DNA of 64,000 nucleotides from NCBI RefSeq assembly GCF_900090305.1, contig NZ_LT607751.1, positions 1,364,001 to 1,428,000 on the forward strand. Direction: 5' to 3'. A model generated the notes under the pieces. That model did not search any database and was not told the DNA's origin. It saw only the letters and a program-made list of their open reading frames with translations. The DNA is from Micromonospora siamensis (GTDB taxonomy: Bacteria > Actinomycetota > Actinomycetes > Mycobacteriales > Micromonosporaceae). The position numbers and the translations under genes were made by a program. Shown piece after piece: positions 1-5,513 of this stretch (the stretch's first letter is position 1; each line of letters opens with the position of its first letter).

Positions 1-916
1 TGAAGGGGATGAGGGCCGCGGGGGCGCGGGCGGCGATCTCCAGGAAGACCAGCTCGCCGTCGGGGAGCCGGAACACCTCGTGGTGGAACACGCCCCGGGC
101 GGGCTTGTCGGGCAGCGCGTCGAGGACCCGACGGTTGAACGCGAGCAGCGGCTCGTGCGCCGGGTCCTCCTCGGGGAGGGTGAAGCTGCAGCTCAGCTTG
201 CCGGCGATGTAGTCGTAGCAGGGGTAGAGGTTCTCGTTGACGCCGACGTGCAGGATGCGTCCGTCCTCGACCAGGGTGTCCAGGTGGTAGAGGGTGCCGG
301 TGACGAACTCGTCGATCTCCCAGCCGCCGCGGGCGTCGTCCCGGAGCCGGTCGGCGGCCCATTCGGCGAGGTCGGCCCGGGTGTCGATCCGTCGGGTGCC
401 GACGCTGCCGGACTCGTTGGTGGGCTTGGCGAAGGCGGGCAGCCCCACCCGGTCGACGATCCCGTCGAGGTACGCCTCCGGGTCGGTCCGGCAGGCCTCG
501 GCGTCCCAGGCGACGTGCCGCGGCAGGCGTACGCCGGCGTCGCGGAGCGCGGCCTTCATGGCGAGCTTGTCGACGAAGGGCTGGACGTTGTGCGGCAGGT
601 CGCCGGGTATGCCGAGGTCGGCCCGGACCTGCGCGACGGTGCCGAGCGAGTACTCGTCGTGGCAGAGCAGGCGGACGTCGTCGCGCTCGGCGGGGTCGAG
701 TCCGGCGCGGATGGCGGTGACCGCCTCGGTCAGCCCGGCGACGTCGAACCGCTCGGGCACGACGATGTGGGCGAAGACGTCCTGCCGGTTGCGGCGGCGC
801 AGCCGGTCGAGGTTGGCCGGGCTGGTGACCAGCGCGAGGCGACGGTCCGGGCGGGCCAGCAGCGCCGGATCGATGCGGAAGGACGCCACGTCCTGGACGA
901 CGATGTCTGTTCGCAC
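1..916 (-). CDS. ATP-grasp domain enzyme, 3' end cut by window edge
   Basis: The visible 305 codons begin at a GTG at 916 preceded by GAGGGG; the reading frame runs off the left edge. It looks like an ATP-grasp carboxylate-amine ligase. ATP-grasp features seen are a DKLAMK segment (K117, K121), a phosphate-binding lysine region FAKPTNESGSVG (K164), an EIDEFVTG segment (E200-E203) and a metal-binding end with E280 (FHHEVF), E293 and R297 (LEIAAR). The first 110 residues form the usual N-terminal nucleotide-like subdomain. Substrate cannot be told from sequence. It is divergent from the small secreted peptide gene at 1187 and shares its upstream region, so a peptide-modifying role is possible but only inferred. 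Confidence 0.85.
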   Translation of the reverse strand, partial: MRTDIVVQDVASFRIDPALLARPDRRLALVTSPANLDRLRRRNRQDVFAHIVVPERFDVAGLTEAVTAIRAGLDPAERDDVRLLCHDEYSLGTVAQVRADLGIPGDLPHNVQPFVDKLAMKAALRDAGVRLPRHVAWDAEACRTDPEAYLDGIVDRVGLPAFAKPTNESGSVGTRRIDTRADLAEWAADRLRDDARGGWEIDEFVTGTLYHLDTLVEDGRILHVGVNENLYPCYDYIAGKLSCSFTLPEEDPAHEPLLAFNRRVLDALPDKPARGVFHHEVFRLPDGELVFLEIAARAPAALIPF

Positions 917-1024
917 GGGAACCCCTCATCCGTGACGATCGCGTGCCGGAGACACGCGAGTGCCGGTGACCGCATCGATCGGCGGTCGTCTCTTCGGGTA
1001 GGACGCTAGGCCCGTCGGCTCGTC

Positions 1025-1041
1025 TTGTCAACGTTTGGCAA
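1025..1041. promoter_or_regulatory. Double TTGNCAA palindrome, candidate operator
   Basis: Two self-complementary heptamers, TTGTCAA and TTGGCAA, are separated by CGT, and the 17 bp together form an imperfect dyad. They lie between the divergent ATP-grasp and peptide genes in a relatively AT-rich patch. Further copies occur at 1116-1122 and 1436-1442, flanking the peptide gene. TTGGCA at 1035 could also serve as a -35. The regulator encoded at 1516 is the natural candidate for binding, by inference. Confidence 0.45.
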
Positions 1042-1115
1042 ATCGATCGGCAACCCGAGTCAAGATTTATTCCGTTCTGGGTTGCCGACCACGGAGGGCG
1101 GCCTTACGGTGGCGC

Positions 1116-1122
1116 TTGGCAA
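1116..1122. promoter_or_regulatory. TTGGCAA palindromic heptamer, third copy
   Basis: Same self-complementary heptamer as at 1035-1041, 65 nt upstream of the peptide start. It is followed at once by CCTTGG, which extends the dyad-like character. Possible operator or mRNA leader element. Confidence 0.3.
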
Positions 1123-1186
1123 CCTTGGTCGAGCCGGCGTCCCGCGCCGGTCCGCTGTCCCGCCGACCTACATTGCGAGGAATCCC

Positions 1187-1354
1187 ATGGCATCGAAACT
1201 GTCGCTCGGCGTCCTGCTCAGCCTGCTTCTGCTGCTGGGTCTCGCCGGCCCCGCCGCGAGCTCGGCGACGGCGCCGCCGCCGGCCCCTTCCGCCGGCGCG
1301 GTGCAGCCCGAGGCGGGCGGCGACGCGATCAACAACGACATCGACTGGCCTTGA
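1187..1354 (+). CDS. Small secreted peptide precursor (55 aa), possible signalling peptide
   Basis: ATG at 1187 follows GCGAGGAA as a ribosome site; longer in-frame starts lie in the AT-rich upstream region and give no plausible protein. The product has a short charged start, a Leu-rich hydrophobic core (about residues 6-20), an AGPAASSATA stretch that fits signal peptidase cleavage, an Ala/Pro-rich linker and an acidic C-terminus ending NNDIDWP. No domain is recognised. It sits just upstream of an XRE-TPR regulator on the same strand, which is the arrangement of RRNPP-type quorum sensing (a pre-propeptide next to its receptor), and opposite an ATP-grasp enzyme. Signalling, or being a substrate of the enzyme, are both inference. 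Confidence 0.6.
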   Translation: MASKLSLGVLLSLLLLLGLAGPAASSATAPPPAPSAGAVQPEAGGDAINNDIDWP

Positions 1355-1361
1355 TCGACTC

Positions 1362-1408
1362 CGGGGTCGGCCGTGCCCGCGCGGTGCGGTATGGTGCGGC
1401 CGACCCCG
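1362..1408 (+). terminator. Hairpin after the peptide gene
   Basis: An 11-bp perfect stem (CGGGGTCGGCC at 1362-1372 with its complement at 1398-1408) encloses a 25-nt loop 7 nt after the peptide stop. No T-run follows, as is usual in such genomes. It would separate the peptide transcript from the regulator, which has its own promoter-like TTGACA. Confidence 0.4.
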
Positions 1409-1435
1409 CGAGCGAGCCGTCCTGACTGGTGACCT

Positions 1436-1442
1436 TTGACAA
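1436..1442. promoter_or_regulatory. TTGACAA palindrome overlapping a -35 box
   Basis: Fourth TTGNCAA heptamer, inside CCTTTGACAAGG. TTGACA at 1436-1441 is a consensus -35; AACACT at 1460-1465 lies 18 nt downstream as a weak -10. The position suggests that whatever binds TTGNCAA would block transcription of the XRE-TPR gene at 1516, perhaps by autoregulation. Confidence 0.4.
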
Positions 1443-1515
1443 GGTCTTACCAAGTAGGCAACACTTCTTGCGAGCATGCGGCGGGGGGAGACGCCGGGCA
1501 GAAGCAGGTGACAGG

Positions 1516-2721
1516 GTGAGCGAGCCACTAGAGCAACCGGAGTTCGGCCAACGGCTGCGGGCGTTGCGCCGGGAACGTGGCCTGTCCCAGGCCGACGTGG
1601 TCGGTCCGGGAATGTCGGCGGCCTACCTCTCCCGCCTGGAGTCCGGCGCCCGGCCCCCGACCGCCCGGGCCGTCCAGTACCTCGCGGAGAAGCTGGAGCT
1701 TCCGCTGTCCGCGTTCAGCGCCGAGCAGCCCGACGACCTGAGCACGGTGCTGGCGACCATCACCTCCAGCGAGGACGGCGACACCGTCGAGCCGATCATG
1801 TCGGCCGTACGCGCCGACGGCCAGGCCGCCGCCGCCACCCGCTGGCAGGCCCTCTGGATCCTCGCCCGCCTCCAGATCAAGCAGGGCCGGCACGGCGAGG
1901 CACTCAAGACCCTGGACGCCCTGGCCGAGCTCAGCACCGAGGTGGCCTCACCCGAGCTGGAGATCCGGGCACGCAACCAGCTGGCCCGCTGCCAACGCTC
2001 CCTCGGCAACGTCGCCGCCGCCCGCGCCAGCGCGCTCCAGGCGCACGCCCTGGTCACCGCGCACGAGGTCCCCGCGTCCGACGTGGCCCGTACGCTGATG
2101 ACGCTGGTGTCGATCGAGGCCGAGGCCGGCCACTCGGCCGAGGCGCACGTGCACATCGCCATGCTCGACGCGATCATCCCGGACCTGCCCGTCGTCCTGC
2201 GGGTGGAGGCGCTGTGGACCACCGCCACGGTGCTCACCCGGGAGGGCGACCACAAGGGTTCCGCCGAGCTGCTGGAACGGGCCCTGGACGAACTCGACAG
2301 CCGGGACGACCTCACCCTGTGGCTGCGGTTGCGCCTGGCGGCGGCCTCCCTCTACCTCCAGATGCGCCAGCCCGACACGGGAGAGGCGCAGCGCCGGCTG
2401 GTCCAGGCGGAGAGCGCGCTGGACCTCGTCGGCACCCCCCGCCTCGCCGAGGAATTCGCCTTCCTGCACGCCCTGCTCGCCTTCCACCAGGGCCTTCTCG
2501 ACCTGGCCGGGGAGCGCAGCGAGGAGCTGGCCGGCCGCACCCGCTACCTGTCCTTCCGGGACCGGATCCGACTCGACCTGCTGCGCAACCAGGTGCGGCT
2601 GATCCGGGGCGACCGGGCGGCGGCGATCGCCGAGCTGCGCGGTCTGGCCGTCCAGGCCCAGGAGGCCGGCTACAGCGACCTGGCCGCCGACATCTGGCGT
2701 ACGCTCGCCGACCTGCTCTGA
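1516..2721 (+). CDS. XRE-family HTH regulator with C-terminal TPR domain (401 aa)
   Basis: GTG at 1516 has AGGTGA upstream; the in-frame extension to 1429 would cross the promoter. Residues about 9-66 form a Cro/CI-type HTH (FGQRLRALRRERGLSQ, then AAYLSRLESG with RPPT). The remaining 330 residues are Ala/Leu-rich helical pairs typical of tetratricopeptide repeats. This HTH-plus-TPR build is shared with RRNPP receptors (Rgg, PlcR, PrgX, AimR) that bind short peptides, and with a large group of actinobacterial regulators of unknown ligand. The small exported peptide encoded 160 nt upstream is the obvious candidate ligand. No membrane segment; cytoplasmic. Confidence 0.85.
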   Translation: MSEPLEQPEFGQRLRALRRERGLSQADVVGPGMSAAYLSRLESGARPPTARAVQYLAEKLELPLSAFSAEQPDDLSTVLATITSSEDGDTVEPIMSAVRADGQAAAATRWQALWILARLQIKQGRHGEALKTLDALAELSTEVASPELEIRARNQLARCQRSLGNVAAARASALQAHALVTAHEVPASDVARTLMTLVSIEAEAGHSAEAHVHIAMLDAIIPDLPVVLRVEALWTTATVLTREGDHKGSAELLERALDELDSRDDLTLWLRLRLAAASLYLQMRQPDTGEAQRRLVQAESALDLVGTPRLAEEFAFLHALLAFHQGLLDLAGERSEELAGRTRYLSFRDRIRLDLLRNQVRLIRGDRAAAIAELRGLAVQAQEAGYSDLAADIWRTLADLL

Positions 2722-2847
2722 TCCCCCAGCCGGCGGCCCGCGGCGGCCCCGACCGGCGCGGCACCCGACCGGACCGGGCACCGGATGTCGGGTCCGGCGG
2801 CGGCGCCGCCGCCTAGCGTCGACGGCGACGAAGGAAAGGGGGAGCGG

Positions 2848-3714
2848 GTGCTGGAGCGGCTCAACGAGGCGATGGCCCACCTCGAACGCCACCTCGACCA
2901 GCGGGTCGACGTGGCCGACCTGGCCCGGATCGCCACGACGTCGGAGTACCACTTCCGGCGGATGTTCTCGGCGCTGGCCGGCATCCCGCTGTCGGAGTAC
3001 GTCCGGCGTCGCCGGCTCACCGTCGCCGCCGCCGAGGTACTGGCCGGGGAGGCCACGCTGCTCGACATCGCGGTGCGGTACGGCTACGGCTCGGCGGAGG
3101 CGTTCGGCCGGGCGTTCCGCTCGGTGCACGGCGTCGGCCCCGGCGAGGCCCGGCGCACCGGCGCCACCCTGCGCTCGCAACCCCGGATGTCCTTCCGACT
3201 CGTCGTCGAAGGGAGCACCACCATGCGATACCGCGTCACCGACAAGCCCGACTTCCACCTGGTCGGCCGCAAGGCCCGGGTGCCGCTCGTGCACGAGGGG
3301 ATGAACCCCGCCATCGTGGCGTTCGTCCGGAGCATCGACCGGGAGACGGTACGCCGGATCGAGGCGCTCTCCGACCAGGAACCGGCCGGGATCGTCAACG
3401 TCAGCGACGCCCTCGACGAGTCCCGCGCCGAGGGCACCGAGCTGGACTACTGGCACGGCGTGGTCACCTCGGCCGAGCCGCCGGCCGACCTGGACGCGAT
3501 GCCGGTGGCGGCCGGCGCCTGGGCGGTCTTCGAGAGCTCGGGGGAGTTCCCGCAGGCCCTGCAACACCTCTGGCGGGACGTCTTCACCGAGTGGTTCCCG
3601 GCGAACCCTTACCGCAGCCGGCCGGGGCCGGAGCTGCTGCGGGCCCGGGTGTCGCCGGACGGCAGCCGGGCGGACGCGGAGCTGTGGATCCCGGTGGAGC
3701 GCGTGGCCGCCTGA
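2848..3714 (+). CDS. AraC-family regulator with GyrI-like effector domain (288 aa)
   Basis: GTG at 2848 is preceded by a strong AAGGAAAGGGGGAG. Residues 1-105 are an AraC/XylS DNA-binding domain with two HTH units (VADLARIATTSEYHFRRMF; LDIAVRYGYGSAEAFGRAF). Residues from about 125 form a GyrI/Rob-type effector-binding domain (MRYRVTDKP onward, ending AELWIPVERV). The N-terminal placement of the HTH followed by GyrI-like domain is the Rob/BmrR-effector type layout, often linked to multidrug or stress responses; ligand unknown. It starts 126 nt after the XRE-TPR gene and may be cotranscribed. Confidence 0.85.
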   Translation: MLERLNEAMAHLERHLDQRVDVADLARIATTSEYHFRRMFSALAGIPLSEYVRRRRLTVAAAEVLAGEATLLDIAVRYGYGSAEAFGRAFRSVHGVGPGEARRTGATLRSQPRMSFRLVVEGSTTMRYRVTDKPDFHLVGRKARVPLVHEGMNPAIVAFVRSIDRETVRRIEALSDQEPAGIVNVSDALDESRAEGTELDYWHGVVTSAEPPADLDAMPVAAGAWAVFESSGEFPQALQHLWRDVFTEWFPANPYRSRPGPELLRARVSPDGSRADAELWIPVERVAA

Positions 3715-3818: not shown

Positions 3819-5513
3819 GTGAGTAATGCGATGTCGCCGACGGGGACCGACCAGGCGACGACAAAGGATCCGAGACCGAACTGGCCGTACGTCATTGCGA
3901 TGGCCCTGCTGATCCTCCCGTGCTGCCTGGTGAACAATGAGACCGTCTATTCGGGCTCCGGGGGAGAGAACATCCTTCGGCTGATCGGCTTCCTCGTGCT
4001 GGCGCTGATCGTCGGGCTCACGATCGTCGGCAAGTGGGGCGGCCCGCACGACCACGCCCGCGAGGAAGAGGCGGCAGCGCCCTCACCGGTGGCGACCGCA
4101 CTCGCCGCCGCACTCAGGGAGCTTGAGACGGAGACGGAGACGCCGGCCGCGCGGCCCGGTTCGGACGAGACCGATCCCGGGGATTCCTCGACCGGTCCGG
4201 CCTCGGGCGGGCAGGACGACCGAACCGGCGATCGGCCGACGCCTCCGGCGGTCACCGCGGACTTTCTGCGGACCGATCCCCGTACCGCCTGGGCCTACCG
4301 GCGGTACCTCGGGCAGCGGTCCCCGGCTGGCATACCGGAGGCCACCGGGCGGCGGCTGCTGGCCGCGGTGGAGCATGGCGACCACGTCGAGTTGTTCCTC
4401 GACGCCACCGCGCGGGAGAGCGCCAACCTGTTGGACGCCGTCGACTGGTCCCGGCGCGGCGCCGATCAGTTCGTGGCCGCCCGCACCCTGCGGGGCTGGA
4501 TCCTCGTCGAGCGGGACGACGGTGTGCCGATCGTGCTGCCTGGCCCGGCCTGGTCGGGTCTCCGTGCCGGCACCAGCCGGAGCGCCCCGGCTTCGGACGT
4601 CGGCTGGGCCACGGTGCTGTCGACCCCCGACGGCCGGTCGTACGCGCTCAAGGTCTTTCTGGACGATCGGGACGGGGGCGATCTCAAAATCATCGAGCAC
4701 GGCGCCGGCGAGGTGATCCTCCGGTTGCCGGAGGCGCAGGCGGTGCCGCCGATGCCGGATGTGACGGATCTGCCGGCCGACCTGTCCGCACAACCACCGG
4801 CCGTCCTGCCCGCCGACTGGCAGACCGCCGAGGAGATCGCCTGCACACACATGCGTGGCCTGGGCTTCCTCGACGCGGAGACCACCCGGGGTGGCCGGGA
4901 CGGCGGACTGGACGTCCAGTCCGAGCGCGGGGTCGCCCAGGTCAAGATGCTGGCCCAGCCGGTGGGTGCGCCGCCCGTGCAGCAACTCCGGGGCACCCGG
5001 CCGAATGCCGCCTACCACCTCTTCTACTCGACCTCGGGATACACGTCGGCGGCGATCGCGGCCGCCGCTGAGATCGGGGTGGCGCTGTTCCGGATCGCGC
5101 CCACGGGCCAGGTCGGCGCGGTGAACGCGCCGGCGACCAGGCTGGCCCGCCACGGTGCGGCGGTCGACGGCGACCAGCAGGGCGCGGCCCGCCGTCGGTC
5201 GGTGGAGCGGCTGGTGGACGAGTACGCGGCCGAGGTCGTCGCGCGGGTGACCCGGGCGGTGGAGAACACCGATCGGAAGCGAGCCGTCGAGCACGCCCGC
5301 TATCCAGGCCAGGAGGACCGGCTGAACCGCTATCTCTTCCGCGCGCTGGACAACCTCACGGCTGAGCGGAGTTTCCCGTCAGCCCGCTCGGCGCTCGCCC
5401 ACTACCACCACAGCGAACTGCTGGCGCACGTCTGGTTCCAGGAGCTCGGCATCCCGTACCCGGACGGCGGCGGCCGCTCGGAGCCGGAGACGTTGGAGTC
5501 GTACTACGGCTGA
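3819..5513 (+). CDS. Membrane-anchored Mrr-like restriction endonuclease domain protein (564 aa)
   Basis: GTG at 3819 (ATG 3831 is an alternative) lies 6 nt after a -10-like TAGCAT. Two hydrophobic segments (about residues 22-42 and 51-71) anchor the N-terminus; an acidic, low-complexity linker follows. The C-terminal half carries a Mrr_cat-type nuclease fold: TAEEIACTHM helix, GGLDV with D365 and QVK with Q374/K376, which match the D-x(n)-QxK catalytic pattern. Mrr-type enzymes cut modified or foreign DNA or act under stress. No methyltransferase gene is nearby, as expected for a type IV-like enzyme. The membrane anchor is unusual for classical Mrr but is seen in other actinobacterial relatives. 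Defence role is inferred. Confidence 0.8.
   Translation: MSNAMSPTGTDQATTKDPRPNWPYVIAMALLILPCCLVNNETVYSGSGGENILRLIGFLVLALIVGLTIVGKWGGPHDHAREEEAAAPSPVATALAAALRELETETETPAARPGSDETDPGDSSTGPASGGQDDRTGDRPTPPAVTADFLRTDPRTAWAYRRYLGQRSPAGIPEATGRRLLAAVEHGDHVELFLDATARESANLLDAVDWSRRGADQFVAARTLRGWILVERDDGVPIVLPGPAWSGLRAGTSRSAPASDVGWATVLSTPDGRSYALKVFLDDRDGGDLKIIEHGAGEVILRLPEAQAVPPMPDVTDLPADLSAQPPAVLPADWQTAEEIACTHMRGLGFLDAETTRGGRDGGLDVQSERGVAQVKMLAQPVGAPPVQQLRGTRPNAAYHLFYSTSGYTSAAIAAAAEIGVALFRIAPTGQVGAVNAPATRLARHGAAVDGDQQGAARRRSVERLVDEYAAEVVARVTRAVENTDRKRAVEHARYPGQEDRLNRYLFRALDNLTAERSFPSARSALAHYHHSELLAHVWFQELGIPYPDGGGRSEPETLESYYG

Follow-up and report, generated by a model that had tools for sequence, protein, structure and literature searches.

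A candidate peptide signal and HTH-TPR receptor pair beside biosynthetic genes in Micromonospora siamensis, with counterparts in other actinomycetes

Results

A putative signal-receptor pair

The window analysed here, 64,000 nucleotides of Micromonospora siamensis (NZ_LT607751.1, positions 1,364,001 to 1,428,000), begins at G000:C1:1364001 in a genome of 6.25 Mb on one contig. Its left end holds a 55-residue open reading frame (ORF), which is followed by a gene for a regulator with helix-turn-helix (HTH) and tetratricopeptide repeat (TPR) domains and faces an ATP-grasp gene. We consider it likely that the peptide is a signal and the HTH-TPR protein its receptor, and that the two control linked biosynthetic genes and work like the RRNPP systems. 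An earlier sequence-only reading of this DNA had named the same three genes and proposed peptide signalling. All three genes were confirmed to be present, and the signalling proposal was supported by a small ORF with the motif [IV][DEG]WP within 2 kb of 56 of 79 related regulators and by operator-like sites ahead of the peptide gene in 9 of 11 cases where that gene is convergent with the regulator or remote from it. The finding reaches beyond the three genes. The earlier reading did not note the operators, and the gene cluster to the left of the window was outside the DNA that it saw.

The peptide gene lies at 1187..1354 on the forward strand (ATG at 1187, stop at 1352-1354) and encodes MASKLSLGVLLSLLLLLGLAGPAASSATAPPPAPSAGAVQPEAGGDAINNDIDWP. 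A lysine is followed by a 17-residue hydrophobic stretch (residues 5-21; 1199..1249, forward strand) and then by small residues, and we regard this N-terminus as signal-like, with export judged by hydrophobicity only. The C-terminus reads NNDIDWP. A Shine-Dalgarno-like GAGGA (1177..1181, forward strand) precedes the ATG within GCGAGGA.

The regulator gene occupies 1516..2721 on the forward strand and encodes 401 residues from a GTG start, with Pfam matches to HTH_31, HTH_3 and TPR_2. Its HTH spans residues 9-65, and the repeat helices begin at about residue 75. An alternative in-frame GTG start lies at 1429, and the closest orthologue has a possible ATG start one codon upstream of the equivalent of 1516. 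An AlphaFold2 model showed an HTH followed by a TPR superhelix, with a mean pLDDT of 92.7. By its Pfam matches and this model, the protein has the HTH and C-terminal TPR layout of RRNPP receptors, and its length falls within their range of 250-500 residues (PMC10075063, in excerpt). We treat it as a putative cytosolic peptide receptor.

Conservation within Micromonospora

Of 121 Micromonospora genomes, 10 had the regulator (E 1e-30). Both close orthologues, 96% and 89% identical, have a peptide ORF at the same upstream place, with GCGAGGA ahead of its ATG. These ORFs are 62% and 51% identical to that of the window, and what is kept is mainly the hydrophobic core, in which LLLLL is invariant in the three orthologues, and the C-terminal DIDWP. 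The end of the ORF, DIDWP followed by the stop, is invariant, and its codons are identical in the three species (1337..1354, forward strand; pattern match G000:C1:1365337-1365354). We take this as the conserved core of the putative signal.

Across 160 Micromonospora genomes the DIDWP-TGA pattern matched four times, in each case less than 5 kb from a regulator homologue on the same contig; the reversed pattern, used as a control, matched nowhere in those 160 genomes. The fourth match was in M. rosaria (G092), where the regulator is 51% identical to that of the window and the peptide is otherwise dissimilar by eye. Read by eye, the stretches around 13 Micromonospora regulator genes showed such a peptide in five cases, that of G007 being a leaderless ORF of 28 residues, and those around 11 regulator genes of other Micromonosporaceae likewise in five. 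Other ORFs with a tryptophan near the C-terminus in nine Micromonospora loci, besides the DIDWP peptides, were judged to be chance. When the 55-residue peptide was used as a tblastn query against 41 genomes, matches with E up to 1 appeared in 40 of the 41, and all except the window itself were judged low-complexity; taken alone, this search would have suggested no conservation.

G121 (L052) and G042 (L051) each have a biosynthetic cluster that holds operator pairs and two regulator genes of the family, separated by about 2.8 kb. A peptide ORF was looked for beside these paired regulators at both loci and was not found.

Motif ORFs across the actinomycete regulator family

One genome per GTDB species was scanned with an alignment of the regulator; 167 relatives were confirmed and the best 79 of the 167 were taken as loci. 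These loci, which were brought in by the regulator alone and not by the peptide, come from Streptomyces (the majority), Kitasatospora, Amycolatopsis, Nonomuraea, Actinoplanes, Actinomadura and others. An open count of C-terminal tetrapeptides in hydrophobic small ORFs within 2 kb gave IDWP as the commonest (19 loci), followed by VEWP (4), with all others at 2 or fewer. Beyond 2 kb from the regulator IDWP was likewise first (4 loci), and IGWP occurred at 8 loci when any position past residue 15 was counted.

We then applied a fixed rule, namely an ORF of 18-120 residues with an ATG or GTG start and the motif [IV][DEG]WP within 2 kb of the regulator. The 56 loci that satisfied it fall in 22 of 34 receptor clusters (70% identity), and at 43 of the 56 loci such an ORF has a hydrophobic segment. 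The sequence-only reading had held that loss of the peptide beside the regulator in relatives would speak against it; this check was run, and the motif ORF was present beside the regulator at these 56 of the 79 loci. An adjacent, co-conserved pro-peptide gene with a signal-like segment, as expected of an RRNPP system, is thus seen in the window, in its orthologues and at the motif-positive loci, as judged by hydrophobicity only. As a control, the letter classes were put in each of the 23 remaining orders: 22 of these gave 0-8 loci, and [DEG]WP[IV] gave 15, which overlaps the same repeats. Six-frame motif matches peaked just ahead of the regulator, where 47 of 79 loci had one in the last 500 bp before its start; the adjacent upstream bin had 11 and the remaining bins 0-4 each.

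The motif was often C-terminal or repeated. ORFs on the same strand upstream of the regulator mostly had one C-terminal copy, as in the window, while divergent ORFs and convergent or remote ORFs had 1-4 copies, and six copies were present in the plasmid locus L175. Of 36 plasmid records with a receptor, 12 were fetched, and 10 of these had a motif ORF (the misses being L182 and L185). In five of the 12 (L175, L179, L181, L183 and L184) the motif ORF lay inside an annotated 'hypothetical protein'. Because the plasmid receptors share 77-99.7% identity with receptors found before, they do not form an independent set.

ORFs with the same core but no leader, mostly DDDIGWPK-like and divergent before the receptor, were observed at L079, L095, L112, L113, L133, L174, L177, L179 and L181. 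Both L179 (3512-3709 and 5524-5784) and L181 (3382-3735 and 5379-5612) carry a leaderless ORF plus a signal-bearing repeat precursor. The leaderless products could be intracellular partners or antagonists.

Core types clustered on the receptor tree, with 29 changes against a shuffled mean of 47.6 and none of 200 shuffles as low; types were assigned by hand with 'none' counted as a type, the tree was a quick one, and near-copies inflate the clustering. No receptor column separated IG from ID types in more than 3 of 5 contrasts, and we therefore claim no specificity residue. Class-wide, the receptor was found in 9 of 345 genomes (E 1e-50). A search of the same 345 genomes for [DE]IDWP followed by a stop gave three matches, namely the window and G539 and G706. 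As the latter two have no receptor at E 1e-50, the pattern alone is no finder of such systems.

Putative operators before peptide and receptor genes

Sites of the form TTGNCAA occur before both genes in the window. A paired putative operator, TTGTCAA-N3-TTGGCAA (sites at 1025 and 1035; 1025..1041), lies between the ATP-grasp and peptide genes, a single TTGGCAA (1116..1122) lies upstream of the peptide, and TTGACAA (1436..1442), followed by an imperfect TTACCAA at 1447-1453, lies upstream of the regulator. The 400 bp upstream of 95 regulators contained 143 TTGNCAA sites, where 5.5 were expected from the flanks (about 26-fold), and 65 of the 95 had at least one.

The peptide genes were scored in the same way, from hand-made lists of the peptides found that include close kin (L080/L101/L107 and L091/L092/L114). 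A TTGNCAA site was present within 300 bp before 17 of 18 tandem peptide genes. More telling is the count for peptide genes that converge on the regulator or lie about 2-6.6 kb from it, since 9 of these 11 also had a site. Sites before the convergent or remote genes often numbered two or three, 10-12 bp apart. The background frequency was 2.8% of 20,000 stretches.

TTGNCAA pairs up to 30 bp apart occur at four places in the whole genome of the window (reversed control, one), one of which is this locus. Across eight receptor-bearing Micromonosporaceae genomes, pairs up to 16 bp apart numbered 0-6 each (reversed control, 0-1). All six pairs in G092 are on the receptor's contig and within about 16 kb of it; both pairs in G042 and three of four in G121 lie within about 7 kb of a receptor, and in G106 and G137 two of four pairs adjoin the receptor. 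The single pairs of G007 and G322 lie away from it, and G105 has none. Thirteen stretches around TTGNCAA pairs were read, and no small ORF in them was judged to be a secreted [IV][DEG]WP peptide; a few chance-like ORFs with xxWP were seen. Three TTGNCAA sites in a row, away from a receptor gene, were noted at L158 (G137:C97:235231) and L159 (G106:C2:2161338) and may mark another target, either of this regulator or of a related one.

The ATP-grasp gene and its surroundings

The 5' part of the ATP-grasp gene (2..916, reverse strand, the first 305 codons) is the first of a divergent gene set that continues to the left of the window. The entire protein has 415 residues (G000:C1:1363669-1364916). 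Beyond it, on the same strand, are genes for a 2-oxoglutarate-oxygenase-like protein, an SDR, a class-III aminotransferase and KAS III, and we read this set as a small biosynthetic cluster. The oxygenase-like protein has no Pfam match, and the GntD, VioC and clavaminate-synthase models all scored below cut-off. Genes for an FlK-like thioesterase and an MFS transporter follow 1.2 kb past the KAS III gene.

The surroundings of the receptor were compared by clustering 1056 predicted ORFs from 93 loci. The regulator cluster was present in 85 loci, and the largest other was a chained cluster in 60. Clusters found in 8-14 loci each comprised MFS (14), SARP, P450, two aminotransferase classes, ABC, thioesterase and phosphopantetheinyl-transferase proteins, as judged from one scanned member of each. 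Ten of the 99 members of the chained cluster were scanned; four had adenylation domains of the nonribosomal peptide synthetase (NRPS) type, four were ATP-grasps and two had no match. Three of the four ATP-grasps match LAL_C2, as in L-amino-acid-ligase-type enzymes, and the enzyme of the window matches only Dala_Dala_lig_C, below cut-off.

The sequence-only reading had suggested, as an alternative, that the ATP-grasp enzyme modifies the peptide, and this was not supported. Any ATP-grasp relative (E 1e-4) was present in only 25 of 100 locus records, duplicates included, so most motif loci have none, and homologues of at least 90% identity were confined to the three-species clade of the window. 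The consistent pairing of ATP-grasp and precursor that marks graspetides was therefore not seen among these records. ATP-grasps do cluster near receptors: 8 of the 9 receptor-bearing genomes together had 26 such enzymes, and in 3 of these 8 a total of 6 enzymes lay no more than 10 kb from a receptor, against an expectation of about 0.1. The receptor is therefore probably a cluster-linked regulator, and the ATP-grasp probably an enzyme of the controlled cluster, not a modifier of the peptide.

Two observations concern genes farther off. The FlK-like (fluoroacetyl-CoA-type) thioesterase gene beside the MFS exporter is at G000:C1:1357863-1358270 (L043:5863-6270); FlK-like thioesterases can serve as self-protection genes, and the pair is a hint at the cluster product. 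Downstream of the regulator, a protein with an Mrr-type restriction endonuclease domain behind a hydrophobic segment (window 3819-5513) adjoins an AraC/GyrI-like regulator (2785-3714).

Discussion

How the pair may work

From these data we propose that the pre-pro-peptide is exported through its signal peptide and that the pro-region is then cut, which would release a short C-terminal peptide containing (N)DIDWP. The released peptide would be taken up again by an oligopeptide permease; the genome of the window has eight SBP_bac_5 matches, none tied to the 55-residue peptide. Inside the cell, the peptide would bind the TPR groove of the regulator and alter how the regulator binds the TTGNCAA sites upstream of the regulator gene and those in the divergent promoter region between the ATP-grasp and peptide genes. 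The result would be a feedback loop on peptide and receptor together with control of the ATP-grasp operon. Since the TTGACAA at 1436 looks like a -35 box, the receptor may repress the promoter of its own gene, while the operator pair at -162/-152 before the peptide would suit activation.

Weighing the evidence

Several observations weigh against such a system. Over the whole peptide ORF the proportions of nonsynonymous (pN) and synonymous (pS) differences from M. mirobrigensis are about equal (0.20 and 0.19, against 0.02 and 0.14 for the regulator), so the pro-region drifts and the ORF as a whole gives no sign of selection. No peptide was seen by eye at 8 of the 13 Micromonospora regulator genes, the paired regulators of G042 and G121 among them, and 23 of the 79 family loci have no motif ORF within 2 kb. 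Many of these loci are close kin, and the motif class was widened after the data were seen, IDWP itself coming from the open count. Motif ORFs at L079, L095, L112, L113 and L133 have no signal segment. As to the operators, an exact TTGNCAA is absent from the 400 bp upstream of 30 of the 95 regulators; the peptide genes with no site are those of L127, L062 (M. rosaria) and L068, the last two being remote from the regulator, and only 6 of 13 plasmid motif ORFs, mostly the signal-bearing ones, have a site within 300 bp upstream. On the receptor side, the top PDB profile match is the ComR HTH, and matches to ComR, PlcR and Rgg by sequence are confined to the HTH part. The first-listed Foldseek PDB match of the model is PlcR-PapR7-DNA (E 1.3e-6, TM 0.40/0.55), tied in E-value with LGN; unrelated TPR proteins fit equally well or better, and the fold search did not separate RRNPP receptors from other TPR proteins.

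We weighed three other explanations against these points. The peptide might stay inside the cell that makes it and act there on the HTH-TPR protein as a ligand or co-regulator, in the role of a timer or autoregulatory brake, its hydrophobic segment being membrane-associating or lost. Leaderless same-core peptides next to the regulator at L079, L095, L112, L113, L133, L174, L177 and L179, and the presence of both forms at L179 and L181, would suit this idea, but 43 of the 56 motif-positive loci, and likewise the window and its orthologues, encode a hydrophobic segment early in the ORF, which makes the idea unlikely. We give still less credence to the peptide as precursor of a ribosomally synthesised and post-translationally modified peptide (RiPP), with an IDWP core that becomes a natural product, an ordinary cluster regulator and a graspetide-like ATP-grasp as the modifying enzyme. 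The ATP-grasp relatives near receptors (6 of 26) are in line with it, and repeat-bearing precursors resemble multi-core RiPPs. However, beyond the regulator no single enzyme family stands out in the 93 loci (the chained NRPS/ATP-grasp mix in 60, MFS in 14), signal-like segments precede many cores, and the operators tie the peptide gene to the regulator.

The least probable explanation, to which we attach very little weight, is an ORF without a function of its own that arose by chance, or is decaying, within the regulator's leader. The equality of pN and pS and the regulators with no such ORF speak for it. Against this, the C-terminal core, the ribosome-binding site and the stop are kept, and the same core recurs in dissimilar precursors, on either strand and also at remote sites with operators. 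A signal-receptor pair remains the reading that we favour.

Relation to known systems

The gamma-butyrolactone systems of Streptomyces likewise use small signals to modulate secondary metabolites; a gamma-butyrolactone is an enzyme-made lactone and its receptor a TetR-type repressor, whereas the signal proposed here is a gene-encoded peptide. ComR-ComS of streptococci likewise has an HTH-TPR receptor. It controls competence, and the Streptococcus mutans signal XIP, GLDWWSL, has a WW pair and shares with IDWP the pair DW. The XIP sequence has 0 occurrences in the main text of PMC5131891. The PlcR-PapR, NprR-NprX and related RRNPP systems of Bacillota share with the present pair a receptor-like protein with HTH and TPR parts and, next to it, a short pro-peptide that is probably exported. 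Unlike those systems, the one described here has actinomycete hosts, a core [IV][DEG]WP common to several genera, precursors with 1-6 copies, and links to NRPS and ATP-grasp genes; kinship of the TPR part by sequence was not seen, and we infer import and binding.

Peptide quorum sensing through cytosolic TPR receptors has been described for Bacillota, and a survey of RRNPP systems in Firmicutes and viruses states that Actinomycetota signals are typically enzyme-made small molecules (PMC10075063, in excerpt). A 2026 review names gamma-butyrolactones as secondary-metabolite signals of Streptomyces (PMC13220807, in excerpt). Among the matches listed from PubMed Central (PMC) papers under Creative Commons licences, we found no actinomycete system of this kind and no paper that has IDWP together with Streptomyces. 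Subscription papers and preprints are outside this scope, and given that scope we do not claim priority for an actinomycete peptide-receptor system.

The recurrence of a similar pair next to antibiotic-type clusters in other actinomycetes suggests that peptide messages switch such clusters. Going further, we lean towards a widespread peptide-pheromone language of actinomycetes, in which secreted, often repeat-bearing precursors would give rise to short [IV][DEG]WP peptides, and cluster-situated HTH-TPR receptors would act at TTGNCAA operators to switch specialised-metabolite clusters; leaderless twins at some loci may be intracellular antagonists. If this is true, species could eavesdrop on one another through a core that is nearly common to many genera, and knowledge of the pairs would predict which cluster answers which peptide. 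Synthetic peptides would then serve as keys to silent clusters, and what turns such clusters on would become directly testable with short synthetic peptides.

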